Notes under the pieces: generated by a model
What the model was told of the DNA's origin: nothing
Seen by the model: the letters and a program-made list of their open reading frames with translations, nothing else
Databases searched by the model: none
Program-made: the position numbers and the translations under genes
IMG/VR virus record: IMGVR_UViG_3300025886_000156
Location: 1-24,141 of that record
From: a virus
Strand: one strand, 5' to 3'
Length of the DNA: 24,141 bases
Shown here: positions 443-19,385 of the stretch, in pieces
Layout of the letters: the number at the start of each line of letters is the position of its first letter
How positions within the stretch are numbered: the first letter of the stretch is position 1

Positions 443-847
443 TTGAAAAAGATACTACAATGGCTATCCGGTAGCGTTATCAAAGAGATTGGTAACGCTA
501 TTGATAAGCTTACGACAACCGAAGAGGAAAAGCTTGAAATAAAAAAGCAGGTTCAACAGATACTAGAAGACGCAGACACTAAAGCTCAAGAGCAAGTAAC
601 AGCAAGATGGCAGTCAGATATGCAGTCTGATTCTTTCTTGTCTAAAAATATTCGCCCTATAGTACTTATATACTTAACAGTTATATTTACTATTTGTGCG
701 TTTTTTGATGGTAACGTTGGAGAATTTGTAATAGCAGAAGAATATATACCAATATTTCAAACTTTATTAGTTACCGTTTATGGCGCTTATTTTGTAGGAA
801 GATCTTGGGAAAAAGGAAAATCAATAATAAATAACAAAAATAAATAA
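443..847 (+). CDS. holin-like membrane protein (GTA/3TM holin family)
   Basis: This 134-aa protein probably forms membrane lesions for host lysis. An N-terminal charged helical region (about residues 10-55) is followed by RWQSDMQSDSFLSKNIRP, the pattern that precedes the membrane segments in the 'holin of 3TMs, for gene-transfer release' family (RW.aD...sdswLs..iRP). Two hydrophobic segments follow at about 72-88 and 102-119, with a basic tail ending KGKSIINNKNK. The start is TTG directly after the previous stop (TAA-TTG). The first in-frame ATG is at codon 60 and would remove the conserved motif, so TTG is preferred. The stop overlaps the next ATG by one base (TAATG). No endolysin lies beside it in this window. 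The family call rests on recalled motif similarity. Confidence 0.72.
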   Translation: MKKILQWLSGSVIKEIGNAIDKLTTTEEEKLEIKKQVQQILEDADTKAQEQVTARWQSDMQSDSFLSKNIRPIVLIYLTVIFTICAFFDGNVGEFVIAEEYIPIFQTLLVTVYGAYFVGRSWEKGKSIINNKNK

Positions 848-1095
848 TGGGACAATTTAACAATCAACCAGACTTTGGAACAAATGCGTTTCCAGTTGTT
901 GCAGGAACTACAAATGTTAGAAACTGCGCGTTATATTTAGGTAGCGGAGGAAATATAGAGGTTACCTTAATGGGCTCACCAGATATTCCAGTGGTATTTA
1001 AAAACATTCCGAATGGTAGCTTTTTACCATGCATTGTAAGTACTATTGTAACAGGAGCTAATACTACTGTTGCGGATATTGTAGCTATTCAATAA
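847..1095 (+). CDS. small beta-rich protein, spike-base-like
   Basis: This 82-aa protein has almost no charged residues and looks all-beta. The pattern RNCALYLGSGGNIEVTLMGS...VVFKNIPNGSFLP..VSTIVTGANTTVADIVAIQ matches what I know of the 'spike base protein, RCAP_Rcc01079' family (gene transfer agent head-spike base): Gly-Gly-[DN]-[IL]-x-V, then VxFxN[VI]PxGxxLP, then a TG-x-T-T-A-like stretch and a hydrophobic end. The gene is joined by TAATG overlaps to the holin-like gene before it and to the adhesin-module gene after it. That placement fits a small virion surface protein made together with a partner. A base or anchor for the next protein is plausible but inferred. Confidence 0.55.
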   Translation: MGQFNNQPDFGTNAFPVVAGTTNVRNCALYLGSGGNIEVTLMGSPDIPVVFKNIPNGSFLPCIVSTIVTGANTTVADIVAIQ

Positions 1096-1622
1096 TGAAT
1101 TGGTCTGCAATATTAAACGGGGTTTGGTGGCCAGATAGAGATGACACAGGAATCCCCTGTAATACTACGGCTCAACCTGGAGGATTAGGCGTAACAGATA
1201 ACACTATAGCTTTAGATCCATCAGGAGGAATAATAACTCTGCAATTTACAGCTTACGGTATACCAGATAAGCTTGAAATAATTCACGGTAATTCCAGCGG
1301 AACTAAAGTAGCGACAACGGGTATGGCTGCAAATTCGAACTCTGGGCCTTTTGATGATGTATACGGGACTGAACCTTTTAATGTTGTACCTACAGAGGGT
1401 CAAACCTCCTTAACGCAATTCATTGGAAATAACAAGGGGGCTATACCAGACAGAGGGATTGAATACTCTCAAGCTACCGGAATTGCAAATCCTCTAGTTT
1501 CGCCTTATCAACAATTAGTGTGGTGGATTTATACTTCAGCTGATTATCAGACAGCCCCATTCGTTACAGTTAGAGCGACCGGACCTAACGACACTCAATG
1601 GCAGTTTGAAAGGATATGCTAA
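1095..1622 (+). CDS. stand-alone adhesin/virion surface module protein
   Basis: This 175-aa protein is beta-rich, acidic and Trp/Gly-rich, with no signal peptide or membrane segment. Residues 22-175 are clearly homologous to residues 515-677 of the 684-aa protein encoded at 19418-21472. Shared blocks include LDP[ST]GG, G[IL]PDK[LF]EI[IF]HG, AT[ST]GM, GPF[DE]..[YF]GT.P.N..PT, QFIG, and VWW.YT[SA]ADY...P..T[VI]R.TGP. The copy here lacks the roughly 500-residue N-terminal part of that protein and has only about 20 extra residues at its start, so it may attach through a partner such as the spike-base-like protein encoded just before it. A role in host or glycan recognition is inferred from context; no catalytic motif is visible. 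Start ATG overlaps the previous stop (TAATG). Confidence 0.7.
   Translation: MNWSAILNGVWWPDRDDTGIPCNTTAQPGGLGVTDNTIALDPSGGIITLQFTAYGIPDKLEIIHGNSSGTKVATTGMAANSNSGPFDDVYGTEPFNVVPTEGQTSLTQFIGNNKGAIPDRGIEYSQATGIANPLVSPYQQLVWWIYTSADYQTAPFVTVRATGPNDTQWQFERIC
1158..1619 (+). repeat. paralogous adhesin module, copy 1 (stand-alone)
   Basis: This coding segment (residues 22-175) is the first copy of the module repeated at 20960-21451. By eye, roughly two fifths of residues match over the whole length, and both copies begin and end at a cysteine. Confidence 0.75.
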
Positions 1623-2719: not shown

Positions 2720-2948
2720 AGCAGTTGAGGAATTAATAAAGGTAGCGGGAGAAAAGATCGTTGACTCAGGTGAAGATATATCAGCTGACAGACTTAAGAA
2801 TGCTGCTGCCACAAAGAAGCTCGCTATATTTGATGCCTTCGAAATACTTACTAGAATACAAGAGGAGGAGGATATGCTGAACAACAAGCCTAAAGAAGAA
2901 GTTGAGAAAAAAGCTTTTAAAGGGTTTGCTGAAAAACGATCTACATAA
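2673..2948 (+). CDS. small helical protein, candidate small terminase subunit
   Basis: This 91-aa protein begins at ATG 2673 (MNIKETKKNIIQAG). Earlier in-frame codons back to 2586 lie well inside the co-chaperonin gene and encode sequence of different character, so 2673 is preferred. The protein is highly helical and charged: AVEELIKVAGEKIVDSGEDI, SADRLKNAAATKKLAIFDAF, EILTRIQEEEDML, ending KAFKGFAEKRST. Its place directly before the large terminase, sharing a TAATG overlap with it, is where small terminase subunits usually sit. The size and lack of an obvious helix-turn-helix leave that open. It could also be an unrelated conserved marine-phage helical protein. Confidence 0.6.
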   Translation: MNIKETKKNIIQAGHRAVEELIKVAGEKIVDSGEDISADRLKNAAATKKLAIFDAFEILTRIQEEEDMLNNKPKEEVEKKAFKGFAEKRST

Positions 2949-5161
2949 TGTACGAGCAATCATTATATAAAATAATAACCCCTGTTAAATTAACTACAAT
3001 ATCCAGGCTAAATAAAGCTAAGAAGTGGGAATATGGTTATAACAAAGAACATGATTTAGTTGTTATAAGCAAAACAGGACAGATAGGTGATATATATAAT
3101 ATACAAAATCTAAAAATAGCATTACCTAAGACCCCGTCTAAAGTAGACGAAGCTAATAACAAATGGAAAGCTGAAGAATATCCTAAAGAATTAAAGTCGG
3201 TAACAAGTATATTTGACTGGAGGGAATATCCTGAAGATTTTCAAAATAAATGGGAACCCTATATAGATGAACAATTTAAAAGACGCGACGAAGGCCATTG
3301 GTTCAATAATAAGAGCGTGGCTACTTACATTACTGGTACTCATTTTATGTACCTGCAGTGGAGTAAAATTGACGTTGGGCGACCAGACTTTAGAGAAGCA
3401 AATAGATTATTCTTTATATTCTGGGAAGCTTGCAAAGCAGACAGCAGATGTTACGGCATGTCATATCTCAAAAACAGACGTTCTGGATTTTCGTTCATGG
3501 CATCCGGAGAGACTGTCAACATGGCCTCCATATCAAGTGATGCACGGTTTGGGATATTGTCCAAATCTGGCTCCGATGCGAAGAAAATGTTCACGGATAA
3601 AGTCGTACCCATATCGGTTAACTACCCGTTCTTTTTCAAACCAATACAAGACGGAATGGATAGACCGAAAACGGAATTGGCGTATAGGATACCAGCATCC
3701 AGACTAACAAGAAAATCAATACAAAATAAACAAAGTGTCGAAGTCCTCGAAGGTCTCGATACCACAATAGATTGGAAAAACACTGGTGACAACTCCTATG
3801 ATGGAGAAAAATTAAAATTACTAGTACACGATGAAAGTGGAAAGTGGGAAAGACCAGATAATATATTAAATAACTGGCGAGTAACAAAAACGTGTTTACG
3901 ATTAGGTTCTAGAATTATTGGTAAGTGTATGATGGGTTCAACCTCAAATGCTTTAGATAAAGGAGGAGCTAATTTTAAGAAGTTATATGGGAATTCCAGT
4001 GTAACAAAAAGAAACAGAAACGGGCAAACAGCTTCTGGTTTATATTCTTTATTTATTCCAATGGAATGGAATTACGAAGGGTTTATAGATGAATATGGAA
4101 TGCCTGTATTCAATACGCCTAAGGAAACAGTATTAGGTCCATTAGGAGACGTTATAGACGTCGGAGTTATAGAACACTGGGATAATGAAGCAGATGGCTT
4201 AAAAGGAGACCAGGATGCTTTAAATGAATTCTATAGACAGTTTCCGCGTACAGAGGAACACGCTTTTAGAGATGAAACAAAAAACAGTATATTTAACTTA
4301 GTTAAGATATACGAGCAAATAGATTATAACGAAGATCTTGGTAATACAAATGTAGTTACTACTGGCAATTTTCAGTGGGCTAACGGAATTAAAGATTCAA
4401 CTGTTATATTTACACCAAATCCAAGTGGAAGATTTAAAATATCGTGGGTTCCAAGCAGTGCTTTACAGAATAGACAAACAGTAAAGAATGGATTAAAAAG
4501 CCCAGGCAATGAGCACATGGGTGCATTTGGCTGTGATAGTTATGATATATCTGGAACAACAGATGGTCAAGGTTCCAAAGGAGCTTTGCATGGGTTAACT
4601 AAATTCAGTATGGAGGATCATCCAGTTAATACTTTCTTTTTAGAATATATTGCTAGACCTCAAACTGCTGAAATATTTTTTGAAGACGTATTAATGGCAT
4701 GCATATTTTATGGAATGCCTATACTAGCAGAGAATAATAAACCTAGGTTATTATACTACTTTAAAAGAAGAGGATACAGGGGTTATTCAATGAATAGACC
4801 AGATAAGCTTTGGAACAAGCTATCAGTAACTGAAAGAGAAATTGGCGGCATGCCTAACTCGAGTGAAGATATAAAGCAAGCTCACGCAGCAGCTATAGAA
4901 ACGTATATTGACAAACACGTTGGTTTACAATCAGATGGACAATATGGAGCAATGTATTTTAATACAACGCTAAACGATTGGGCGGGGTTTGACATAAATA
5001 AACGAACAAAGTTTGATGCGGCAATAAGTTCGGGGTTAGCGATAATGGCTTGCAATAGACATTTATACCACCCACGACCTCAAGTAGAAAAGAATAAAAT
5101 AAATTTAAAAATAGCTAAATACACCAACACTGGTGGTTTATCAAAAATAATGAAAAAATAA
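2948..5161 (+). CDS. terL: terminase large subunit
   Basis: This 737-aa DNA packaging motor combines an N-terminal ATPase with a C-terminal RNase H-like nuclease. The P-loop region appears to be YLKNRRSGFSFM (residues about 173-184), which lacks the usual GK[ST] and instead has RRxGFS, a variant I associate with some Bacteroidetes-phage terminases. Walker B is LKLLVHDESGKWE with D295-E296. The nuclease has GCDSYDISGT (D530, D533) and KFDAAISSGLA (D690), matching the usual spread of metal-binding acidic residues. Length is somewhat above typical TerL (about 500-650). Start is the TAATG overlap with the helical gene; the portal gene follows after 4 bp. Codon choice changes inside the ATPase half (about 3255-3770), see findings. 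Confidence 0.88.
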   Translation: MYEQSLYKIITPVKLTTISRLNKAKKWEYGYNKEHDLVVISKTGQIGDIYNIQNLKIALPKTPSKVDEANNKWKAEEYPKELKSVTSIFDWREYPEDFQNKWEPYIDEQFKRRDEGHWFNNKSVATYITGTHFMYLQWSKIDVGRPDFREANRLFFIFWEACKADSRCYGMSYLKNRRSGFSFMASGETVNMASISSDARFGILSKSGSDAKKMFTDKVVPISVNYPFFFKPIQDGMDRPKTELAYRIPASRLTRKSIQNKQSVEVLEGLDTTIDWKNTGDNSYDGEKLKLLVHDESGKWERPDNILNNWRVTKTCLRLGSRIIGKCMMGSTSNALDKGGANFKKLYGNSSVTKRNRNGQTASGLYSLFIPMEWNYEGFIDEYGMPVFNTPKETVLGPLGDVIDVGVIEHWDNEADGLKGDQDALNEFYRQFPRTEEHAFRDETKNSIFNLVKIYEQIDYNEDLGNTNVVTTGNFQWANGIKDSTVIFTPNPSGRFKISWVPSSALQNRQTVKNGLKSPGNEHMGAFGCDSYDISGTTDGQGSKGALHGLTKFSMEDHPVNTFFLEYIARPQTAEIFFEDVLMACIFYGMPILAENNKPRLLYYFKRRGYRGYSMNRPDKLWNKLSVTEREIGGMPNSSEDIKQAHAAAIETYIDKHVGLQSDGQYGAMYFNTTLNDWAGFDINKRTKFDAAISSGLAIMACNRHLYHPRPQVEKNKINLKIAKYTNTGGLSKIMKK

Positions 5162-5165
5162 AAAT

Positions 5166-7592
5166 ATGGCTACCACTCCTATAACAAGTTATTTTCCAAG
5201 CCAAATAGCTAGTGACCAAGAAAAAATGTCATTAGACTACGGGACCACTATTGGTAGAGCTATAGAAAATGAATGGTTTAGTTCCGATAATGGGAACGGC
5301 AGGTTCAAAAGTAACCAAGCAACCTTTCATAATCTTAGATTATACGCTCGAGGAGAGCAGCCAATTCAAAAATATAAAGATGAGTTATCAATCAATGGTG
5401 ATTTATCATATTTGAATTTAGACTGGAAGCCTGTACCAATTATACCTAAGTTTGTAGATATAGTTGTTAACGGAATTTCAGACAGACAATTTGACATAAA
5501 AGCATACTCTCAGGATCCATACGGTGTTGAAAAAAGAACTAAGTATATGGAGTCTATTATAAGAGACATGCAAACCCAGGCGCTAAACGACTTCGCAGCT
5601 AAGGAGTTTGGGGTTAATTTGTTTGAGAATAACCCTGACACTTTGCCTAAAAACAAAGAAGAGCTTGATCTACACATGCAGCTTAGCTACAAGCAGCAAG
5701 TTGAAATAGCTGAAGAGCAGGCTATAAATGTATTATTAGATGGTAATAAATACGATTTAATTAAAAGAAGATGTAACTATGATCTAACGACTATTGGTAT
5801 TGGCGCTGTGAAAAACACCTTTAGCAAAGCAGAGGGAGCTTTAGTTGATTACGTGGACCCCGTAACCTTAGTGTGGTCTTACACGGATTCTCCATATTTT
5901 GATGACGTATATTACGTAGGGGAAGTTAAAGCAGTTCATTTAAACGAACTTAAAAAACAATTCCCTCACTTAACTAATGATGATCTACAAAAAATAGCAG
6001 GTCAAAATACAAGCAACAATGGTTTTTATGACAGAACCCTTAGTAATTCGGATTATGACGATTCAAATACTGTTCAGGTTCTTTACTTTAATTACAAGAC
6101 TTTTTCAAATGAAGTTTACAAGGTTAAGGAAACTGCTACAGGAGCAGCTAAAATAATTCCTAAAACAGATGAATTTAATCCGCCTGAAGAATTATATGAG
6201 GAGTACGGGATAACTAAGTTGTCTAAATCCTTAGAAGTTGTTTATGAGGGAGTAAAAGTTTTAGGTGGAGAAATGCTTAAATGGGAATTAGCAAAAAATA
6301 TGATTCGCCCTAAGAGCGATTACACTAAGGTTAAGATGAATTATAGCATCGTGGCGCCTAGAATGTATAGAGGTAGAATAGAATCAATAGTAAGCCGTAT
6401 AACTGGTTTTGCGGATATGATTCAATTAACTCACTTAAAGTTACAACAAGTAATGTCAAGAATGGTGCCTGATGGTGTTTATCTTGATGCAGACGGATTA
6501 GCTGAAGTAGATCTTGGCAATGGAACTAATTACAACCCGCAAGAAGCGCTTAATATGTTCTTTCAAACAGGTTCTGTTATAGGTAGATCGTTCACTCAAG
6601 ATGGTGATATGAATCCTGGTAAAGTGCCAATACAAGAAATTACAACAGGAGCGGGTGGGCAAAAAATGCAAAGCTTAATAACCAACTACAACTATTACAT
6701 GCAAATGATAAGAGATGTTACGGGGTTAAACGAAGCAAGAGATGGCAGCACTCCAGATGCTAGAGCTTTAGTTGGTGTGCAAAAAATGGCTGCAGCAAAC
6801 TCTAATACAGCAACAAGACATATATTGGATGGTAGTTTATATCTAACGTCTGATTTATGTGAAGGATTATCATTAAGGATATCAGATATACTAGAATACT
6901 CACCTACAAAGGAAGCATTTATACACAAGATAGGTAATCAAAATGTAGCAGTGCTTGAAGAGATGAGCGATCTATACTTATATGATTTTGGCATATTTAT
7001 TGAGCTTCAACCAGACGAAGAGCAAAGAGCTGTTCTTGAAAACAACATTCAAGCAGCTGTTCAAAGTGGTCTTATAGACTTAACTGATGCAATTGATCTT
7101 AGGGAAATTAAAAACTTAAAGCTAGCTAATCAATTATTAAAGATAAGAAGGAACGAGAAGCAGATTAAGGATCAGCAAATGCAGCAGCAAAATATACAAG
7201 CTCAAGCACAAGCAAACACACAAGCACAACAAGTAGCGGCTCAAGCAGAAGTGCAAAAAGGACAAGCTTTAATCCAACAAAAAATTGCATTAGAGCAAGC
7301 AAAAGCTCAAATAGATGCTCAAAAATTAATACAAGAAGCTTCTTTGAAAAAAGAGTTGATGCAATTAGAATTCCAAATGAATATGCAGCTTAAAGGTATT
7401 GAGGTTCAAGGTCGGAAAACTGAAGTAACAGATAAAGAAGATAGAAAAGACGAAAGAACTAAGCTACAAGCTACACAACAGAGTGAATTAATAAATCAAA
7501 GACAGAATGATTTACCTCCAAAAAACTTCGAATCCAGCGGAAACGATATACTTAGCGGAGATTTTAACTTAGGTTCCTTTGGGCCTAGGTAA
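5166..7592 (+). CDS. portal protein
   Basis: This 808-aa protein would form the dodecameric ring through which DNA enters and leaves the capsid. Typical portal features of this phage group are visible near the N-terminus: NLRLYARGEQPIQKYKDEL, then LSYLNLDWKPVPIIPKFVDI and VVNGISDR, followed by a helical crossing region (QEQAINVLLD-like, about 170-200). Residues about 400-560 contain the ARALVGVQKMAAANS segment and a predicted long helix. The last about 150 residues are Gln/Ala-rich coiled coil (QMQQQNIQAQAQANTQAQQ), then a charged segment and an Asn/Gly/Ser tail, a layout common in large portals of crAss-like and marine phages. It directly follows terL and precedes the scaffold gene, the standard order. 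It begins after the leader TAAAAAT. Confidence 0.88.
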   Translation: MATTPITSYFPSQIASDQEKMSLDYGTTIGRAIENEWFSSDNGNGRFKSNQATFHNLRLYARGEQPIQKYKDELSINGDLSYLNLDWKPVPIIPKFVDIVVNGISDRQFDIKAYSQDPYGVEKRTKYMESIIRDMQTQALNDFAAKEFGVNLFENNPDTLPKNKEELDLHMQLSYKQQVEIAEEQAINVLLDGNKYDLIKRRCNYDLTTIGIGAVKNTFSKAEGALVDYVDPVTLVWSYTDSPYFDDVYYVGEVKAVHLNELKKQFPHLTNDDLQKIAGQNTSNNGFYDRTLSNSDYDDSNTVQVLYFNYKTFSNEVYKVKETATGAAKIIPKTDEFNPPEELYEEYGITKLSKSLEVVYEGVKVLGGEMLKWELAKNMIRPKSDYTKVKMNYSIVAPRMYRGRIESIVSRITGFADMIQLTHLKLQQVMSRMVPDGVYLDADGLAEVDLGNGTNYNPQEALNMFFQTGSVIGRSFTQDGDMNPGKVPIQEITTGAGGQKMQSLITNYNYYMQMIRDVTGLNEARDGSTPDARALVGVQKMAAANSNTATRHILDGSLYLTSDLCEGLSLRISDILEYSPTKEAFIHKIGNQNVAVLEEMSDLYLYDFGIFIELQPDEEQRAVLENNIQAAVQSGLIDLTDAIDLREIKNLKLANQLLKIRRNEKQIKDQQMQQQNIQAQAQANTQAQQVAAQAEVQKGQALIQQKIALEQAKAQIDAQKLIQEASLKKELMQLEFQMNMQLKGIEVQGRKTEVTDKEDRKDERTKLQATQQSELINQRQNDLPPKNFESSGNDILSGDFNLGSFGPR

Positions 7593-8800: not shown

Positions 8801-10228
8801 ATGGCAACAAAATTTACTGGGAGCGCAGGAGCATTAGCTCACTTAGTCCCACGACCAACACAAAACTTATTTCAAGACAACTATTTAACACTAGCTGACT
8901 TAGACTTTACACAACAATTCTTACCTGAGGTGTATGAAAAAGAAGTAGAGCGTTACGGAAACCGTACGATCTCTGGATTCTTAAGAATGGTAGGAGCAGA
9001 AATGCCAATGGCTTCAGACGTAGTAGTTTGGTCAGAGCAAGGAAGATTACACGCAGCTTACGATCCAGTTGAGACTACAGCTACAACAGTTATAATCCCA
9101 GCAGTTGGGGGAGTTTCTCAAAATGTTATTGGACCAGGAGCTACTATCGTAGTTGCTTCAGCTAATGGTTTAGTGGTAGAAAAAGCTTATGTACAGTCTG
9201 TTACAGCGAATTCTCCTAACGCAGGTGATGCTACATTAACAGTAACTGGATATGCAACTCCAGCTATTACAGTGCATGCAGCCGCCAAAATCTTCGTATA
9301 TGGTTCTGAATATGCAAAAGGAACGTCTAATGCAGGTACTTCTGTTGATGCAGCTTTCGAGCAGTTTAATAACAAACCAATTATCCTTAGAGACAAGTAT
9401 AATGTAAGTGGATCTGATACAGCTCAAATTGGGTGGGTTGAAGTTACTACTGAAGTTGGAACATCTGGATACTTATGGTATTTAAAATCTGAGCACGAAG
9501 CACGTATTCGTTTTGAGGATCAATTAGAAATGAGTATGTTAGAAGCTGAAAAGTCAGCTGCTGGTATTACGGTTGCAGACGCTAGCTTTGGCGGTGGAAC
9601 AACTCTTACTGGTTCTGATGGACTTTTTGCCGCACTTGAAGATAGAGGTCTTGTCTATACAGATCAAAATTTTGGTGGAGCGAATGGACTTGCAGACTTT
9701 GACGAGATACTACAAGAGCTTGATAAGCAAGGAGCGATTGAAGAGAATATGTTATTCTTAGATCGTGCTACTTCTTTAGGCATTGACAACATGTTAGCCG
9801 CTCAAAATTCTTACGGTGCTAATGGTACATCTTATGGTGTATTTGACAACTCTGAAGATATGGCGCTTAACTTAGGATTTAGCGGATTCCGTAGAGGATC
9901 TTACGATTTCTATAAGACTGACTGGAAATACTTAAACGACGCCACTACTCGTGGATTAGTTGGAGATATCGAAGGTGTGGTTGTACCAGCTGGAACTTCT
10001 ACAGTTTACGATCAGCAATTAGGTAAAAATATTTCACGACCATTCTTACATACTCGTTATAGAGCTTCTGAAGCTGACGATCGTAAGATGAAGTCTTGGA
10101 TTACTGGATCTGTTGGTGGAAACTATACAAGCGACGAGGATGCAATGAACGTTCATTTCTTATCAGAAAGATGTTTATGTGTACAAGCAGCTAACAACTT
10201 CGTATTATTGAAGAAAGTTAATGTTTAA
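8801..10228 (+). CDS. major capsid protein
   Basis: This 475-aa protein builds the icosahedral shell (HK97-type fold expected). The N-terminus ALAHLVPRPTQNLFQDNYLT, then LDFTQQFLPEVYEKEVERYG and NRTISGFLRMVGAEMPM, is a strongly conserved pattern of marine Bacteroidetes-phage capsid proteins. Residues about 95-175 look like an inserted Ala/Val/Thr-rich beta domain. Later blocks include SEHEARIRFEDQLEMSMLEA, a helical spine-like stretch, and the C-terminal FLSERCLCVQAANNFVLLKK. It follows the scaffold gene by 15 bp with an A-rich leader, and a strong stem-loop terminator sits 17 bp after its stop. That arrangement fits high, separately tuned expression. Confidence 0.88.
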   Translation: MATKFTGSAGALAHLVPRPTQNLFQDNYLTLADLDFTQQFLPEVYEKEVERYGNRTISGFLRMVGAEMPMASDVVVWSEQGRLHAAYDPVETTATTVIIPAVGGVSQNVIGPGATIVVASANGLVVEKAYVQSVTANSPNAGDATLTVTGYATPAITVHAAAKIFVYGSEYAKGTSNAGTSVDAAFEQFNNKPIILRDKYNVSGSDTAQIGWVEVTTEVGTSGYLWYLKSEHEARIRFEDQLEMSMLEAEKSAAGITVADASFGGGTTLTGSDGLFAALEDRGLVYTDQNFGGANGLADFDEILQELDKQGAIEENMLFLDRATSLGIDNMLAAQNSYGANGTSYGVFDNSEDMALNLGFSGFRRGSYDFYKTDWKYLNDATTRGLVGDIEGVVVPAGTSTVYDQQLGKNISRPFLHTRYRASEADDRKMKSWITGSVGGNYTSDEDAMNVHFLSERCLCVQAANNFVLLKKVNV

Positions 10229-11225: not shown

Positions 11226-11957
11226 ATGGCAATAAGCGTAGACAGTGTTTACCAACGAGTGCTTGGTATCCTTAATAAAGAGCAAAGAGGTTATGTAACC
11301 GCTCAAGAATTTAATCTATTTGCCAATCAAGCTCAAGAAGATTTATTCGAACAATATTTTTACGATATAAATCAATTCGGAAGAGTTCCAGGTAACAGCA
11401 CTGAGTATTCAGACATGCTAACCCTGTTAAATGAAAAAATTAATATATTTGAATCTGTTGCGCAACCAACACGTTCAGGCTTATTCTTTGAGCCGGCAGC
11501 AGACCAATATAGATTAGGATCAGTTGTATATAAGAACACGACCACCAACTCCTTTGGTGTGGCTACGACTGAAAACATAGAAGCTGAGCGTATCAACGCA
11601 AACGAGTTTCTATATATAAATTCATCTCCATTAACAAAACCTAAAAACGTTAGACCTATTTTTGTTTCAAATACAAGCGGAATTAGAGTATACGGTAATT
11701 CAGAGATTACAGACCCAACTGAAGTTGAGTTTCAATACATAAAGAAACCAGCTAAAGTGCAGTGGGCTTATCAAATAGTTTTTCAAGAACCATTATACGA
11801 TGCAGCCAACTCTGTCAACTTTGAGCTACATCCTTCTGAAGAAACAGAACTTGTTATTAAAATACTAGAGCTTTCTGGTATACTAATAAAAGATTTGTCT
11901 TTATATCAAGTAATGAATCAAGAAGAGAACGAAACAATCCAACAAGAAAAAGCATAA
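11226..11957 (+). CDS. head-tail connector/ring-like protein
   Basis: This 243-aa protein has a helical N-terminus, SVYQRVLGILNKEQRGYVTA then QEFNLFANQAQEDLFEQYFY, which is characteristic of a structural protein between the capsid and tail genes in marine phages. A beta-rich centre follows (about 85-190), with VRPIFVSNTSGIRVYGNSEI, VEFQYIKKPAKVQWAY. The C-terminal part NFELHPSEETELVIKILELS is a final helix ending in a Gln/Glu-rich tail. Position after the head genes and right before another adaptor-like protein suggests a ring or connector component, as in crAss-like phages. The exact position in the particle cannot be deduced here. Preceded by leader AATAATAAAAAAATACACAA. Confidence 0.68.
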   Translation: MAISVDSVYQRVLGILNKEQRGYVTAQEFNLFANQAQEDLFEQYFYDINQFGRVPGNSTEYSDMLTLLNEKINIFESVAQPTRSGLFFEPAADQYRLGSVVYKNTTTNSFGVATTENIEAERINANEFLYINSSPLTKPKNVRPIFVSNTSGIRVYGNSEITDPTEVEFQYIKKPAKVQWAYQIVFQEPLYDAANSVNFELHPSEETELVIKILELSGILIKDLSLYQVMNQEENETIQQEKA

Positions 11958-11960
11958 TAT

Positions 11961-12872
11961 ATGGGCTTAATAAACCAAACAGATGAACAGTACTACCTAG
12001 GTCCAGATAATGTTTGGAACAGTTGGGACGAAGACTACGGTAATTATCAATTTACCAGTATAAAAGATATTATAAATAACTTCATTATATCTTACGTAGG
12101 TGAAGAGAAGATCATACCTAAAGCAAAAAGAACCGACGTAGCATTTCATGCTCAGCGAGGTATTCAAGAATTTAGCTTTGATATATTGCCTTCCGTTAAA
12201 TCCGCAGAGATTGAAGTAGGGCCTAATTTAAACTTCGTATTACCTAAAGACTACGTAAACTATGTAAAACTAGTTTGGGTTGATTCTAGCGGCATAGAAC
12301 GCGTAATATACCCAGCTCAGCACACTAGCAACCCTTTCCCTATCCTACAAGACAACAATTACGAATATCTATTTGACGAACAAGACCAGGAGATCATATC
12401 TGCTCAGTCCTCAGAGACAAAGAAAAGATTTCAATCAACAACTAATAGTGAGATTGGAAATGAATCTGATAATATTACCAATAGAGGATTTTCAATTAAT
12501 CACTTTGGCAGACGTTACGGTATTTCACCTCAACAAGCACAAACAAATGGTGTTTTTTACATCGATCAGCTTCAAGGAATTATATTCTTTGACTCTTCAT
12601 TTGTAGGGAGGATAGTTACTTTAAAATACATTTCTGATGGCTTAGGTACAGACGAGGAAATGGTAGTACATAAATTTGCAGAGGAGGCTTTATATAAATA
12701 CATGGCATACGCTATATTATCTACTAGAGCCAACACTCCTGAATATTTAGTATCAAGATTTAAGAGGGAGCAATCTGCGGCTAAAAGAAATGCAAAAATA
12801 AGATTATCTAATATTAAAATAGAGGAAATTACACAAGTTATGCGTAATAAATCTAAGATCATAAAACACTAA
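11961..12872 (+). CDS. connector/tail-adaptor-like protein
   Basis: This 303-aa protein begins 3 bp after the previous stop. It shows TSIKDIINNFIISYVGEEKI, RTDVAFHAQRGIQEFSFDIL and LPKDYVNYVKLVWVDSSG, a pattern seen in neck or tail-tubular-type proteins of this phage group. A hydrophilic Ser/Asn/Gln-rich region (about 135-185) separates this from IDQLQGIIFFDSSFVGRIVT, followed by helices with EEALYKYMAYAILSTRA and a basic C-terminus (KREQSAAKRNAKIRLSNIKI). The two connector-like genes and the giant gene after them are spaced by only 3 bp, so they are probably translated together as a tail-assembly set. A T7 gp11-like adaptor is a possible analogue. Confidence 0.65.
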   Translation: MGLINQTDEQYYLGPDNVWNSWDEDYGNYQFTSIKDIINNFIISYVGEEKIIPKAKRTDVAFHAQRGIQEFSFDILPSVKSAEIEVGPNLNFVLPKDYVNYVKLVWVDSSGIERVIYPAQHTSNPFPILQDNNYEYLFDEQDQEIISAQSSETKKRFQSTTNSEIGNESDNITNRGFSINHFGRRYGISPQQAQTNGVFYIDQLQGIIFFDSSFVGRIVTLKYISDGLGTDEEMVVHKFAEEALYKYMAYAILSTRANTPEYLVSRFKREQSAAKRNAKIRLSNIKIEEITQVMRNKSKIIKH

Positions 12873-12875
12873 TAT

Positions 12876-15800
12876 ATGGCAGAGTTTGTACATAGTTTCC
12901 AAAGAGGGAGAATGAACAAAGACCTTGACGAACGTTTAGTTCCGAATGGAGAATATAGAGATGCTCTAAATTTAGATTTAGCAAATTCAGACGCAAGTGA
13001 CGTTGGAGCTATGCAAAATATTGCAGGCACAATACAATTGCGTTCAAAAGTAGGTACGGGAGCAACTTGGACAGGTGGTTATATAGACGCTATGACAAAC
13101 CCTGTTTGTATTGGATCTTATAGAGATGATATAAATGAAAGAATATATTGGTTTATAGCAAGTGATGGCATTAGTGCTATTGCTGAATACGACCAAGTTA
13201 AAAACGAGGTTAGCCCTATTTTAGTAGACACCGCGGGTATTTTAAATTTTTCTGCTGATTATTTGATTACAGGTATAAACATACTTGACAAGTTTTTGTT
13301 TTGGACAGACGATCAAACTGAACCAAAGAAAATTAACGTTGAAAAGTTTAAAACGGGTTCTACTGATTTTGTTACTCAAACTAAAATTCCTAAATGGGAT
13401 GCCGTTCAAAATAACTATAATACAAATTTATCAGGTCAGCCAGATTTTGTAGAAGCAGATGTTACTGTTATAAAACTATCCCCATTAGATGCCCCTACTT
13501 TTACTGCAGCAGATTCTAAATTTGGCAATGATATTATTGGAACTGGTAATACGCCGGCAACAACCAGGTTTAATTATATTGATTTATATAATTTTACCTA
13601 CATTCCAGATTTGATATCTTTTCCATCACGATTTACTGCTTATCCTACATATGGCGAATATTTGGAACAGATAGAATCTGGCGGCGACTATCTTGATAGT
13701 TCTTTTAATGACTCTGTTAACAACCCTAACTATGATGCTACCTATGGGTGGAACGGGTTAGTAACTTTTATTACAGATCAATTAGTCACTGTTTGGGACA
13801 CTGTAGATAATGATATAGTAACACTTAAAGCAGAATTTAATAATCAATTTGGTCAAATTGAAAACTACGCGTTACAAATAAAAATAACGCAAATAAATAA
13901 CACAGAAATAACAGGTCAAATACAAGCTATATCTACTGATATAATTAGAAACATAGACGCTGAAGGCGTTAGTACACCTCTGCAATGGGAAGCTGTCTTA
14001 CAAGAAAAAGACCCTATGTTTGAATATGTGTTCCCTAGGTTTGCGTATAGATGGAAGTACATAGATAATGAGTACTCTTGTTTTTCACCTTTTTCAGAGG
14101 TTGCTTTTATTGGAGACGAATTTGAATATATTTCTTCTAATGGGTATAATGTAGGCATGACTAATAATATTAGAAAACTTGCAATAGAATCTTTACAATG
14201 GGGTTCCGAAGAGGTTGATGAACTTGATATACTATATAAAGAATCAAACAGCACAGCTGTATATGTTGTAGACACTTTAAAGCTGCAGGATTTTGTTCCA
14301 TACACCTTAACGCCTTTACCTACTTCTTATAAAATCAATACTGAGTTAATTACAAAATTAGTTGAATCTAACCAAATATTAAGACCGTGGGATAATGTTC
14401 CGCGTAAAGCTAAATCTCAAGAAATAATTGGCAACAGAGTAGTTTATGGTAATTACTTACAAAACTACACACTGAATAACACAATTAAGCTAGGCTTAAC
14501 ATTGTTTTCTAATGTTCACCCTGGAACACTGCCTTCTGAAATTGATCCCGCTACTGAGATTGGAATTCCAAATCCAAATACAAGAATGCCTTACAAGTCT
14601 TTAAAGTCTATACGAACCTACCAGCTAGGAGTATTATTTAAAGATCAATATGGAAGGGAAACACCCATATTTACTAGTGAAGAATCCGGCTTGCAAATAG
14701 ACGTAAATGAAGCTTCTTTTGTAACGCAATTACAAGCCTCTCCTATTTCCTTACCTCCTTTTCCTGAGGCAACGCATTATAAGTTTTTTGTAAAAGAAAC
14801 TGCAACCGAATATTACAATTTAGCTTTAGATAGATTTTACTTAGCAGAGGACGGCAATGTTTGGCTTTCTTTTCCTTCATCTGAAAGAAATAAAGTTGAC
14901 GAAGAAACTTATTTAATACTTAAAAAGCAGCACGACAATAATATTCCTGTAACTACTGCGAATAGATACAAGATACTATCAATAGCAAATGAAGCACCTG
15001 ATTTTATATCAAGATTCGACGCCTTCATTGCATCATCTTCTGTTACACTACTTAATGAAATAGAACCTGGTTTTTTACAAATTAAATTTACAGGGCCAGA
15101 TAATCAAACCAATTCTAATTTTAGAGAAAACTTGAACTCCTCTGCTAAAATAGCTATAAATTTTTCAGGACAAAGCACTCAGAAATATGATTTACAATCT
15201 GCTGAAATTAGCGGTACCAATGGAACAACTTATACATTAAAACTTGAAAATGCTTTAGGAGCTGAAGTTCCTGTAATTCCAGATGGAACTACTAATGTAA
15301 TTATAGAAATTTACCAAGAAGAAACTAAAAATTTACCAGAATTTGAAGGTAGATTCTTTGCTAAAATAAACAGAAACTTTGGTTTTGACACAAATATTAT
15401 ATCTTCTTTTAAAGCTTTAAAAACGCAATATGCAGTTAAAGATGAAATAGACTTTGAAAGAGCGTTGCAACCTGAAACTAACGGAGCAGGGGTTCCTAGC
15501 GGTTATTACTATGGAGACAATGGCAGTAGAGATGTGAAAAATGATGTTGGGGGGGATCAACTATGCAACGGTCGTGCTGGCGAAAGATATTTAAGAGGAG
15601 GCAATGGCTGGGGAGGCGCTGGTTCCGGCGTGCAAGCATTCCTTAGCGACGGCTATCAGCCTCCTACTAATGGCTCTAATGTTTTTGGCTTTCAGTATTT
15701 GGATTCTCCATTAAATGGACTCATAGATGATATGGTAGGAACCACGCCTGATATGTGGGGGAGTCGTACACCTCTTAGTGGTTACATAGCTCCAGGAGCT

Positions 15801-18800
15801 AGTATTAGGTTTAAATTTAAAGACGGATCTTATTCTAATATATATACAGTAGACCAATCTTTTGGTAGAGTTACATATAGGGGCGCAGAAGCAGTGAAGG
15901 TAACATGGCACGGGTTTCCTCCTATCCCAAGATTTAATTGTAGAGATAGAAACGCACAGTGGAATTATAGATATGGCTGTACGATTACTCTTAAAGAACA
16001 ATTAAACGAGCCTTTAATGCCAAACGCAGGGGATTGGGAACACCTTCAAGATGTATTGCCTAGCGTACAAGTAGTTGAACCAATAACCAGCGATAACAAC
16101 AAGCTTTTATCTTCTTCAAACCCAGCTATATTTGAAACAGAGCCTAAAGAATCTGTTGATTTAAACTTGTTTTATGAGGCAAGCAACGCTATTCCAATAG
16201 CAGATTACAATACACCTAATCAATTAATAAACTGGTTTAACTGCTACTCGTATGGAACAGGGGTTGAATCAAACAGGATTAGAGATGACTACAACGCAGT
16301 ATATATAGATAAAGGGCCTAAAGTTTCAACCGTACTGGACGAACCTTACGCAGCTGAACGAAGAGGTAGCGGCTTTATATTTTCGCAAATATATAACTCT
16401 ACATCGGGTATAAATAGATTAAACCAATTTATACAAGCAGAACCTATCACAAAGGATCTTAATCCTATATATGGAACAATACAGAAATTACATGCTCGTG
16501 ACACTGATTTAATATCTTTATGTGAGGACAAATGCTTACGTGTGTTAGCTAATAAGGACGCTTTATACAACGCCGATGGTAATTCTAATGTAACATCTAA
16601 TCAATCGGTATTAGGGCAAGCTGTGCCTTATGCAGGTGAATTTGGCATATCTAAAAACCCAGAGTCTTTTTCTTCTTATGGATTTAGAGCATATTTTACA
16701 GACAAGAATAGAGGTGCAGTAATAAGGCTTTCAGTAGACGGTATTACAAATATCGCTGATAAAGGAATGGCTGGATTCTTTGCAGATAACTTAAGAACCA
16801 CTACAACAGCTGTGGGAAGTTACGACGATGACAAAGACATATACAACCTTACTCTAAATAACCTATCTAACTACTGGCAGAAAAGACTTAGTCTTGACGC
16901 TAATTATCAATTAGATCCCGATTGCGAGGACGCACCAACAAGTTTAGTACCAAATACTACAATATCATTTAAAGAAAGTGTAGATGGGTGGACTAGTAGA
17001 AAAGACTTTATACAAGAGTCCGGTATTACATTAAACAATTTGTATTATACATTTAAAAATGGTTTAATATGGATACATGGAGCTAATTCTGTATATAACA
17101 ACTTCTATGGAATACAATACGATAGTTCATTTAACGTTTTAATAAATGAACAACCGCAAGTGGTTAAAGGGTACAGTACTTTAAATTACACAGGCACCGC
17201 TTCCAGGATTTTTGAATACCAAAGCGGCAATAAGTGGTACTCTATTGCGGAAATTAACGCTAATCAAATAACACCTACAGCTTCACAGCTTAAAAAGCAC
17301 GGCTGGTACACTAGCTTTGTTAGAACAGATCTTGAAGCTGGTGAAATTAAAGAATTTCAAAAGAAAGAAGGGAAGTATTTTAATTACATAAAAGGTACTT
17401 TAATTGGCTGCGAGCCTGATACAGGAGGTATTGGACCTTGCTTGGATTGTGGTGAAACACCTCAAGATTACTTGTTAACTGTTACTATTGACGAAACTTG
17501 TAGCAGCTCTGGTTCTCCAACTCCAGATACTGATTTTGAAGGATGGTACCAGTGGAATGCTAAAGGTCTAAGCTCTTCAATATTAGAAGCACCAACTGCT
17601 CAAGATGCTAAATGTATTATAGACGATTTTTATGCTTATGTAAACGGAGGCTACAGCTCGGTAACTTCAATAAATTATAATCAATTTAAGTACGTATTTT
17701 CAGACGGTATATCTGTAGGAACTCAAATATACGATAAAGATACTTTGCAGCCTATAACTGAAGCAGGCACTTATTTGTGGATAAAACCTCCGCCAATAGG
17801 GATTGCACCAGACAGCCCTTCTTTAGATTCTAATAACCCGACTATAGTACCTAATACATATTTTATAGTTATATGGGGATCAGACGGAGTTATTACATCT
17901 GTTACACCATATAGTTCTCTTACAGTATGCCAAACGCCCCCAGATACTTATTGGGCTATGTGGACTACTTTCCAAGTTGTAACAGAAGAAACGGGGTCGC
18001 ATGTAGAAACCTTAGCTAATTATTCTAATGCTTTAGATAGTAAGTGTGCGCTTGAGGATTTATATCAGTTAACTGTTGATGAAACAGCAACGGGAGGCTT
18101 CCAAGGTGGAATAGGATTTTATTTTTATAGCAATATTGGCTTTGGAGTAGGCACACAGCTTTACGATCGGGATGATCTTTCACTGCCTCTTAATAGCCCT
18201 GGAGCTCACTTATTAGTAAGGCCACCGGCAGAGAATAGTTTAAACGATGACGTTTTTATACGAGATAATGGCGTATCTGCCCCGGATTCTTACGAAATAG
18301 TAATTGTAGGTAGCAATGGAGTGGTAGAATCCATAACACAATATAACACTATTACAGGATCTTGTTCCGAGGACCCTTACGAGCCCGTAGAAGGCCAAGA
18401 CTTTAGGTTTATAGCTAAAAAAAGTGCGTCTCCATATTTTGGGCTGTTCGATGACACCTTAACAGAAGTGAGTTCTCCTTATACATTTGCACCTGTGCCT
18501 AATTCCTCTACCTCAGCTGTAGCTAAAGTAAGCGACAATTACACCTATATACTAACGGCGGGATTGTTTGGTCCTGAAGTAGTCCATTTATCAACTAATA
18601 ATGGCGAAAGCTGGGGTGCTTTGCCTTTTTCTAGTACCGTAAATGAGGTGCATATTTCCAAATCTGGTCAAGTTATTATTGTTGAAAGCGGGGGATATAA
18701 TAACCCTTTAATTGAAGTTTCAAATAATTTTGGAGGTAGTTTTACAACTTTTAATTTAAATAACATAATTACGCTAGGAACATCTATTCCTGTTATAAGC

Positions 18801-19385
18801 AGGGTAGCATTGTCTTCGGGAGGTAAATTTATAACGATAAGCGTCATTGGTGTTTCAGGCATTACGTTTGGCGATAATAATAACCGCATATTAAAAAGTA
18901 GTGATTATGGGGTTAGCTTTAGTGACATAACCGACAACGTAGGCTTTCCTTCTATAGGAGCTATGTATGACGTTAGTATTCAGGACGCTTTAATATCAGG
19001 AGATGGTAAATATGAAATATATTTTAATTCTTCAGGTGCATCTAGATATTCTGACGACTATGGCGAAACGTTTATTGATAAAAATTATCAACAAACCGAT
19101 TGGAATGAAAATGGTCAAATAAGCGAAAGTGGAAAATATTTTATGATAACAGGTATTAATTTTGAAGGCTCTTATTCAACGGATTTTGGAGTTTCAAATA
19201 CGCTGTCAACTATTCCTACAGCTTCACAACAGTACTTAGGCGTGAGCAGTTCAGGAGAATTTTCTTTTGCTTCGGGAACTTTAGCTAATAGCTTGCTGTA
19301 CAGTGATGATTTCTTTGTTACATTTACGCCTATTGGGCCGGTAGCAAATGTTTCTAAACCTTTTATATTAGTAGACGTAAGTTAA
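12876..19385 (+). CDS. giant tail stabilisation/muzzle-like protein with C-terminal repeats and Asp-box propeller
   Basis: This 2169-aa virion protein begins FQRGRMNKDLDERLVPNGEY, then RDALN and SDASDVGAMQNIAGT, a signature of large tail nozzle or stabilisation proteins in marine and crAss-like phages. A second conserved block near residues 1205-1335 contains SNQSVLGQAVPYAGEFGISK, NPESF, TDKNRGAVIRLSVDGITNIA and GSYDDDKDIYNLTL. Between them lies a Gly-rich segment (about 870-925) encoded by locally GC-richer DNA with a G7 run at 15549-15555. After about residue 1480 come two tandem Cys-containing beta domains (1556-1685 and 1696-1830), then a propeller-like domain with six Asp-box motifs (about 1838-2169). 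The conserved part would close the tail tube; the C-terminal domains probably point outward and may bind host surface glycans. No sialidase catalytic set is visible. Confidence 0.8.
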   Translation: MAEFVHSFQRGRMNKDLDERLVPNGEYRDALNLDLANSDASDVGAMQNIAGTIQLRSKVGTGATWTGGYIDAMTNPVCIGSYRDDINERIYWFIASDGISAIAEYDQVKNEVSPILVDTAGILNFSADYLITGINILDKFLFWTDDQTEPKKINVEKFKTGSTDFVTQTKIPKWDAVQNNYNTNLSGQPDFVEADVTVIKLSPLDAPTFTAADSKFGNDIIGTGNTPATTRFNYIDLYNFTYIPDLISFPSRFTAYPTYGEYLEQIESGGDYLDSSFNDSVNNPNYDATYGWNGLVTFITDQLVTVWDTVDNDIVTLKAEFNNQFGQIENYALQIKITQINNTEITGQIQAISTDIIRNIDAEGVSTPLQWEAVLQEKDPMFEYVFPRFAYRWKYIDNEYSCFSPFSEVAFIGDEFEYISSNGYNVGMTNNIRKLAIESLQWGSEEVDELDILYKESNSTAVYVVDTLKLQDFVPYTLTPLPTSYKINTELITKLVESNQILRPWDNVPRKAKSQEIIGNRVVYGNYLQNYTLNNTIKLGLTLFSNVHPGTLPSEIDPATEIGIPNPNTRMPYKSLKSIRTYQLGVLFKDQYGRETPIFTSEESGLQIDVNEASFVTQLQASPISLPPFPEATHYKFFVKETATEYYNLALDRFYLAEDGNVWLSFPSSERNKVDEETYLILKKQHDNNIPVTTANRYKILSIANEAPDFISRFDAFIASSSVTLLNEIEPGFLQIKFTGPDNQTNSNFRENLNSSAKIAINFSGQSTQKYDLQSAEISGTNGTTYTLKLENALGAEVPVIPDGTTNVIIEIYQEETKNLPEFEGRFFAKINRNFGFDTNIISSFKALKTQYAVKDEIDFERALQPETNGAGVPSGYYYGDNGSRDVKNDVGGDQLCNGRAGERYLRGGNGWGGAGSGVQAFLSDGYQPPTNGSNVFGFQYLDSPLNGLIDDMVGTTPDMWGSRTPLSGYIAPGASIRFKFKDGSYSNIYTVDQSFGRVTYRGAEAVKVTWHGFPPIPRFNCRDRNAQWNYRYGCTITLKEQLNEPLMPNAGDWEHLQDVLPSVQVVEPITSDNNKLLSSSNPAIFETEPKESVDLNLFYEASNAIPIADYNTPNQLINWFNCYSYGTGVESNRIRDDYNAVYIDKGPKVSTVLDEPYAAERRGSGFIFSQIYNSTSGINRLNQFIQAEPITKDLNPIYGTIQKLHARDTDLISLCEDKCLRVLANKDALYNADGNSNVTSNQSVLGQAVPYAGEFGISKNPESFSSYGFRAYFTDKNRGAVIRLSVDGITNIADKGMAGFFADNLRTTTTAVGSYDDDKDIYNLTLNNLSNYWQKRLSLDANYQLDPDCEDAPTSLVPNTTISFKESVDGWTSRKDFIQESGITLNNLYYTFKNGLIWIHGANSVYNNFYGIQYDSSFNVLINEQPQVVKGYSTLNYTGTASRIFEYQSGNKWYSIAEINANQITPTASQLKKHGWYTSFVRTDLEAGEIKEFQKKEGKYFNYIKGTLIGCEPDTGGIGPCLDCGETPQDYLLTVTIDETCSSSGSPTPDTDFEGWYQWNAKGLSSSILEAPTAQDAKCIIDDFYAYVNGGYSSVTSINYNQFKYVFSDGISVGTQIYDKDTLQPITEAGTYLWIKPPPIGIAPDSPSLDSNNPTIVPNTYFIVIWGSDGVITSVTPYSSLTVCQTPPDTYWAMWTTFQVVTEETGSHVETLANYSNALDSKCALEDLYQLTVDETATGGFQGGIGFYFYSNIGFGVGTQLYDRDDLSLPLNSPGAHLLVRPPAENSLNDDVFIRDNGVSAPDSYEIVIVGSNGVVESITQYNTITGSCSEDPYEPVEGQDFRFIAKKSASPYFGLFDDTLTEVSSPYTFAPVPNSSTSAVAKVSDNYTYILTAGLFGPEVVHLSTNNGESWGALPFSSTVNEVHISKSGQVIIVESGGYNNPLIEVSNNFGGSFTTFNLNNIITLGTSIPVISRVALSSGGKFITISVIGVSGITFGDNNNRILKSSDYGVSFSDITDNVGFPSIGAMYDVSIQDALISGDGKYEIYFNSSGASRYSDDYGETFIDKNYQQTDWNENGQISESGKYFMITGINFEGSYSTDFGVSNTLSTIPTASQQYLGVSSSGEFSFASGTLANSLLYSDDFFVTFTPIGPVANVSKPFILVDVS
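17541..17930 (+). repeat. tandem Cys beta domain, copy A
   Basis: This segment encodes residues 1556-1685 of the giant tail protein and is homologous to copy B directly after it. Shared positions include D[AS]KC..[DE]D.Y, G[IF].VGTQ[IL]YD[KR]D, [IV][KR]PP, and P[ND][TS]Y.IVI.GS[DN]GV[IV].S[VI]T.Y...T..C. Confidence 0.75.
17961..18365 (+). repeat. tandem Cys beta domain, copy B
   Basis: This segment encodes residues 1696-1830 of the giant tail protein. It is colinear with copy A over its full length, with the same start (DSKCALEDLY) and final Cys. The nucleotide sequences have diverged, so the duplication is not recent. Confidence 0.75.
18591..19325 (+). repeat. six Asp-box-like repeats (beta-propeller)
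   Basis: Six motifs of the form S-x-[DN]-[DNYF]-[GF]-x-[ST]-[FW] are spaced about 40-60 residues apart in the giant tail protein: STNNGESW (S1906), SNNFGGSF (S1949), SSDYGVSF (about 2009), SDDYGETF (S2059), STDFGVSN (S2101) and SDDFFVTF (S2143). The last two are degraded. Lines such as ISKSGQ, LSSGGK, ISGDGK, ISESGK and VSSSGE recur between them, as expected for propeller blades. Confidence 0.7.

Follow-up and report, generated by a model that had tools for sequence, protein, structure and literature searches.

Background

The described system closest to the locus reported here is the head spike of the gene transfer agent RcGTA, which consists of the base Rcc01079 and the fibre Rcc01080 (PMC7296036, PMC10218006). 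In the available text on RcGTA, the base is a six-stranded jellyroll whose N-terminus serves as its attachment (PMC7296036), a peptide of alternating hydrophobic and small residues plugs one fibre into five base pockets, and the fibre binds capsule (PMC10218006); particles without head spikes continue to transfer genes at low frequency (PMC10218006). This kind of spike is thus already known, with solved structures in one gene transfer agent (RcGTA) and, by its PDB label, in one phage (Carin1). The head fibres of crassviruses are of another type, and the accessible part of PMC10172136 places them at hexon centres, as trimers and dimers. Within the open-access literature, we found the term 'spike base protein' together with 'phage' only in work on RcGTA.

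We analysed a stretch of viral DNA, here called the window, which is an entire IMG/VR record of 24,141 bases. An earlier note on this DNA had proposed that two of its genes form a small capsid spike. The proposal is supported by the fold, the sequence family, the gene pairing and the N-terminal peptide of the relatives, although the plug peptide of the window itself is degenerate (3 of 5). We think it probable that the pair encodes a capsid-vertex spike working like the RcGTA head spike.

Layout of the locus

The features of the window that bear on the argument are as follows.

443-847, + strand: holin (phrog_3427, E 6.9e-28)
847-1095, + strand: putative spike base protein, 82 aa, predicted six-stranded fold (NF048002, AlphaFold2, Foldseek, VIA)
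847-876, + strand: base N-terminus MGQFNNQPDF, probable capsid-binding peptide by analogy with RcGTA
1095-1622, + strand: putative spike fibre protein, 175 aa (the base has an ORF in this position in 81/81 loci; relatives found)
1095-1133, + strand: candidate plug peptide MNWSAILNGVWWP, degenerate RcGTA-like anchor (score 3 of 5)
1152-1619, + strand: adhesin-like module, fibre residues 20-175, predicted beta-sandwich (likeness to the end of the 684-aa protein; relatives; AlphaFold2)
Between the fibre gene and the GroES-like gene, + strand: small genes
2129-2719, + strand: GroES-like protein (phrog_13932, E 7.3e-17)
2948-5161, + strand: terminase (terL)
5166-7592, + strand: portal
8801-10228, 11226-11957, 11961-12872 and 12876-19385, + strand: virion structural proteins
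19418-21472, + strand: 684-aa protein, probably on the tail side
20954-21448, + strand: second module copy, residues 513-677 of the 684-aa protein, in a separate clade from the spike copies

As the earlier note had it, the 82-aa and 175-aa ORFs have one base in common; it lies within the sequence TAATG, and the holin ORF overlaps the 82-aa ORF by one base, also as TAATG. Since both junctions flanking the base gene are one-base overlaps of this form, holin, base and fibre may be co-translated. The note had also placed the pair beside the holin and away from the structural genes. It does adjoin the holin, but packaging and head genes follow directly: the pair is flanked by the holin and the packaging/head genes, all on one strand, and terL starts 1.3 kb past the fibre gene. 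Counted by eye, a terminase-like gene lies at most eight genes from the base in 14 of the 20 contigs for which the gene list is complete. The 684-aa gene is about 18 kb from the spike pair, and its place after a 2169-aa virion protein suggests that its product is on the tail side.

Two further observations concern the neighbours of the pair. The holin resembles Pfam GTA_holin_3TM (E 2.1e-4), with 22.2 bits and so under the cut-off of 24.8. The GroES-like gene sits between the spike pair and the terminase in the window, and larger chaperonin-like genes are seen by eye close to the pair in other contigs.

The putative spike base

The first protein of the pair had been likened to the base of the head spike of gene transfer agents, and this likeness is borne out by sequence family and by fold. 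The window base matches NCBIfam NF048002 ('spike base protein, RCAP_Rcc01079 family') with E 4.7e-6 and 26.8 bits, 1.2 bits short of the curated cut-off of 28, and the same model matches all 42 members of our base alignment, the window base included, at E ≤0.001 (best 1.8e-14). A profile of these 42 bases searched against the PDB returned one clear chain, 8cjz_h, 'Spike Base Protein', at E 1.7e-4, with the next chain at 0.54; with a profile of 16 close relatives, 8cjz_h reached just E 0.55, level with an unrelated chain. The RcGTA chain in the PDB was never recovered by sequence, whether with phmmer or with the 16- and 42-sequence profiles. Searching the PDB with phmmer gave no useful match to the 82-aa or 175-aa protein, and Pfam (at E 1) and PHROGs, queried with the proteins of the holin, base and fibre region (P0001-P0003), gave nothing useful for the spike pair.

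The AlphaFold2 model of the base has six strands and a pLDDT of 86.4. Residues 1-10 are modelled at a pLDDT of 52, and M1, G2, N6, Q7, P8 and D9 of the base are invariant in all 42 aligned sequences. Foldseek ranked the RcGTA capsid chain 6tb9_A1 first (E 2.6e-3) and the Carin1 capsid chain 8cjz_h second (E 5.6e-3), both with a probability of 1.00; the third rank had a probability of 0.66, and no row was as good as E 0.001. VIA gave Z 10.2 for 8cjz_h (79 residues, rmsd 2.8) and Z 10.1 for 6tb9_A1 (77 residues, rmsd 2.6), followed at Z 5.1 by A223, by its title the turret protein of Sulfolobus turreted icosahedral virus. By family and modelled fold, then, the 82-aa protein is a predicted head-spike base of the RcGTA kind. 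Against a capsid spike count the score below the NF048002 cut-off, the Foldseek result without a match at E 0.001 and the fact that some anchors of the family score only 0-3.

The same genes could be read as part of the tail, with the 82-aa protein as a small adaptor by which a short adhesin is attached there. Such a reading would suit phrog_12296, 'tail fiber protein', which matches 30 of the 42 base relatives (best 3.2e-10), although the window base has no match to it even at E 1, and it would suit a relative in NC_055853.1 that is annotated 'tail fiber protein', as in some elemovirus records. These labels, however, are annotation and not tests of location, whereas both solved relatives of the fold come from capsid entries and the pair precedes the packaging/head genes. 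In Edwardsiella phage vB_EpM_ZHS, moreover, the base relative ZHS_8, together with an ORF starting MIGLGLNIW, lies between a 'minor capsid component' and a 'putative head fiber protein'. We consider a tail part quite improbable and keep to a base on the head.

Gene pairing and selection

Scanning viral contigs with 16 bases yielded 361 relatives, from which the best 80 were retained; with the window these make 81 loci. In every one of the 81, an ORF of at least 25 aa begins -1, +1, +5 or +6 nt from the base. On the upstream side an ORF is in reach in 78 of the 81 loci, and 50 of those 78 are holin-like.

Comparing the window with nine relatives, we obtained base dN/dS values of 0.024-0.081, which indicate strong purifying selection. 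For the fibre, the window and locus L007 gave 0.42 (base of that pair 0.081), and the window and locus L003 differ by six nonsynonymous and no synonymous changes; fast change is not general, as the fibres of L017 and L012 gave 0.118. A constrained socket carrying a faster adhesin would look like this, with the caveat that the fibre values are few and vary between comparisons. We also considered that the two ORFs might stand together by chance, and reject this on the conservation, the pairing in 81/81 loci and the base dN/dS.

The ORF behind the base is just 45-51 aa long in 18 of the 81 loci. These short ORFs consist of the anchor and a short conserved stretch (L027-L029, L059-L063, L071-L073, L075, L076, L083, L097, L101, L104 and L105). 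In contigs G028 and G039 the gene that follows the short anchor ORF opens with an LLxKASIxxTPTAYxDG-like stretch, and a stretch of the same kind is joined to the anchor ORF in loci L026, L030 and L031. As it is separate in the former and joined in the latter, fibres appear to exist in split and in fused form.

The candidate plug peptide

We scored each anchor for hydrophobic residues at five alternate N-terminal positions with small residues between them. A score of 4 or 5 was reached by 22 of 35 unique anchors, and by 28 of 41 once the loci of the module scan were added, 19 of these 41 scoring 5. Among 626 other N-termini, taken from predicted ORFs of at least 100 aa in 24 contigs, seven scored 4 and none scored 5. 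We stress that we framed the rule with the RcGTA peptide and the sequences of the relatives already in view, that the control ORFs are predicted ones and that the anchors are kin by descent; for these reasons the count is a description with a control and not a clean test.

The window anchor, MNWSAILNGVWWP, has a score of 3 of 5 and is degenerate. Aligned by eye, it corresponds to the relatives' MGGQSIGNGIWWP and MGLGIGNGIWWP, which likewise have an Asn in mid-peptide; the start of the elemovirus fibre, MFISIANAIGV, has this Asn too. The module type of the window is also found directly after full-score anchors, for example MGLGIGLGVDWCGC, again with a base upstream. The anchors of L021-L024 and L065-L070 score 0-2. 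AlphaFold2 places fibre residues 1-18 below a pLDDT of 50, as might be seen in a peptide that becomes ordered on binding a partner, but this is not evidence of one.

Exchange of fibre bodies

When the 66 distinct base-fibre pairs were clustered by similarity behind the anchor (E 1e-5), they fell into 14 clusters, three of which are the 45-51-aa ORFs. A Pfam search with ten fibres found Laminin_G_3, a ConA-like lectin domain, in three, DUF285 in one and no domain in six. Anchor identity tracks base identity with r 0.82 over 2145 pairs, compared with r 0.64 for body similarity, and related bodies occur in 18% of the 152 pairs with a base identity of 70-80%. The window and locus L080 have bases 54% identical and modules 60.6% identical. 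The base of L016 is 95% like that of the window, and yet its module is closer to that of L080 (63.8%) than to the window's (58.2%). By these sequence comparisons, fibre bodies are swapped between phages while base and anchor remain together.

Rows of adjacent paralogous genes stand behind the base in contigs G024, G026 and G027. For the other body types, matches within a contig at E 1e-3 were found in five of the 20 other contigs (G024, G026, G027, G033 and G037), and those of G024, G026 and G027 are between adjacent genes. In locus L004 (also L210) the fibre ORF, at 803 onwards, ends at 84 aa, and the tblastn match to the window fibre runs on to 1263; either the fibre gene is broken here while the base is intact, or the sequence contains an error.

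A module common to two proteins of the phage

The second gene had been called a free copy of a module, and this description is confirmed: the fibre module is 42% identical over 165 aa (E 1e-40) to residues 513-677 of the 684-aa protein. Searching viral contigs with the module gave 85 relatives, the best 80 of which were retained in 78 loci, partly in records already fetched. Among these loci, the base lies directly upstream of the module ORF in 38 of 78, and 37 of the 38 base-linked ORFs are 174-192 aa long and consist of anchor and module, the remaining one being the 84-aa ORF of L210. Locus L200 has a module ORF with an anchor, and a base was not detected there. The other 39 module ORFs are at least 237 aa long and have no base in reach (in L202 and L214-L216 the locus is cut off within the 5' part of the ORF). 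In 27 of these 39, the module lies at most 11 residues from the C-terminus, and in 12 further inside; likeness to the 684-aa protein outside the module is found in 18 of the 39. In L214-L216 the module ends relatives of the 2169-aa virion protein, a third setting (3/39).

Scanning bacterial genomes with the module gave 30 stretches that fit a pattern and no relative; tblastn of the 175-aa fibre against 50,697 phage records did not find the window's module; Pfam, searched at E 0.1 with all 22 rows of the module alignment, gave no match; and the module profile gave nothing useful against the PDB.

Visualizing 70 module copies as a phylogenetic tree, we observed that 34 of the 35 spike copies form one group (100/98), with the second copy of the window outside it. 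The odd spike copy, L195, which comes from the same record as L025, is placed among the non-spike copies; it is a long branch, its placement has modest support (80/76), and it falls under the starred branches of the tree (98/89, 96/88). The spike label requires at least two changes on the tree, and 0% of 200 bootstrap trees can be explained with one. The tree was midpoint-rooted for drawing only, so that the direction of exchange is not readable from it. In a smaller module tree, the four non-spike copies still amount to one change (77/40), and L025 stands next to them (100/99). We rejected a recent duplication within the phage as the source of the two module copies of the window, since they are in separate supported clades.

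A relative of the 2169-aa protein is present in all 24 contigs compared. The module stands on both the spike and the 684-aa-type protein in each of the three contigs that carry it on the spike and also cover the 684-aa gene (the window, G007 and G008); G018, with the module on its spike, ends within the 2169-aa relative and is outside this count. The module is absent from the 20 other contigs, of which just G011, G016 and G039 carry a 684-aa-like gene. Given that few contigs have such a gene and that the contigs are related, we treat the association of the module on the spike with that on the 684-aa protein as weak evidence.

AlphaFold2 models the module as a beta-sandwich with modest confidence (pLDDT 71.9 for the whole fibre). 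The best Foldseek match of the module is the carbohydrate-binding module of an agarase (E 5.3e-3, query TM 0.30), and the VIA matches, led by collagen-binding and SIDT1 domains, reach at most Z 7.2. Altogether the neighbours in the PDB are of several kinds (SIDT1, collagen-binding domains, GOLD, CBMs) and no better than the stated background of the tool. A search of BFVD returned five viral proteins at E ≤0.001 and query TM ≤0.46, three of them named: an uncultured Caudovirales protein, a virion protein of Brevibacillus phage SecTim467 and a protein of Flavobacterium phage tant8-1. As these fold neighbours are at background level, it is from the position of the module and its exchange, and not from its fold, that we infer a host-binding adhesin.

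A capsid spike could also carry a module that does not bind the host but serves as decoration of the head, makes the head more stable or adheres to particles or to material resembling mucus. The module has no known ligand, its scan of bacterial genomes is without a relative and its fold is without clear function, all of which would agree with this, as would the low-frequency gene transfer by RcGTA lacking head spikes in the available text of PMC10218006. On the other side, bodies of other types take the place of this one, among them the ConA-like lectin domains (Laminin_G_3) of three of the ten fibres, and the module also ends other large phage proteins; both fit receptor binding better, without proving it. 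We regard a non-binding module as unlikely, and host binding remains our preferred reading.

Proposed mechanism

We infer the capsid location, stoichiometry and host binding of the pair. The 82-aa base would form a pentamer on the capsid vertices, as in RcGTA, and would be held there by its conserved N-terminal peptide. The N-terminus of one 175-aa fibre would fill the pockets of the pentamer as a plug; in most relatives an RcGTA-like peptide is found at this point. The rest of the fibre would be an exchangeable module hanging off the head, through which the particle may first touch the host surface, reversibly and perhaps at a polysaccharide. In the available text on RcGTA the fibre binds capsule and spikeless particles still work at low frequency, and so here, too, the spike would make an initial, reversible contact faster. 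As the 684-aa protein ends in a diverged copy of the module, head and tail side may recognise related targets.

We further hypothesize that the head spike of this phage group is a docking port, in which a conserved base and a short plug allow the capsid to display any adhesin that follows the plug, and that the adhesin of the window's lineage comes from a pool common with another virion protein, probably tail-side, and has moved between settings more than once, so that related receptor-binding modules would stand at both ends of the virion. For this wider hypothesis we put the chances at about even. With 361 base relatives, and a slot behind a conserved socket in all 81 loci examined whose content is exchanged, the analysis offers a likely role for short genes now labelled hypothetical or 'tail fiber', and it opens to experiment whether the heads of phages, as well as their tails, help to choose hosts.

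Comparison with known systems

In the open-access literature we found neither an account of a base and plug behind which the bodies are exchanged nor an adhesin module common to a head spike and another virion protein; most subscription journals lie outside this search.

Base relatives at E ≤1 were found in 70 phage records, 68 of them of Flavobacterium phages, and the 40 matches listed are elemoviruses at 42.9% identity. In Flavobacterium phage elemoF_6-3D (KNV11_gp41 and gp40), the base relative is 42.9% identical over 77% of the query. In the elemovirus record NC_055853.1 the base is followed directly by the ORF starting MFISIANAIGV, with GroES, terL and portal further on. The elemovirus genes are annotated 'tail fiber protein' and 'putative YapH protein'. 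The elemovirus fibre body has no Pfam match, and it differs from that of the window, whose module tblastn found in none of the 50,697 phage records. The resemblance to elemoviruses suggests that the window phage belongs to the phages infecting Bacteroidota. For Baltic Flavobacterium phages, the accessible part of PMC7077304 holds no virion proteomics.

The Carin1 phage (PDB 8cjz chain h, 'Carin1 bacteriophage mature capsid') provides the best VIA match and the one clear sequence match in the PDB, at an identity to the window base of at most 24%; the comparison is of the base chain alone. With the RcGTA head spike (PMC7296036, PMC10218006), as described in the available text, the locus has in common the modelled fold of the base (VIA Z 10.1 to 6tb9_A1), a base gene with a partner fibre and, in most relatives, a fibre N-terminus with a hydrophobic residue at every second position and small residues between. 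It differs in a base that is under the NF048002 cut-off, in the degenerate anchor of the window and in a fibre body that is unrelated to that of RcGTA by the tests run. In addition, whereas the available text of PMC10218006 gives BLASTp homology between the RcGTA head spike fibre and tail fibre as absent, the module of the window is common to two proteins.
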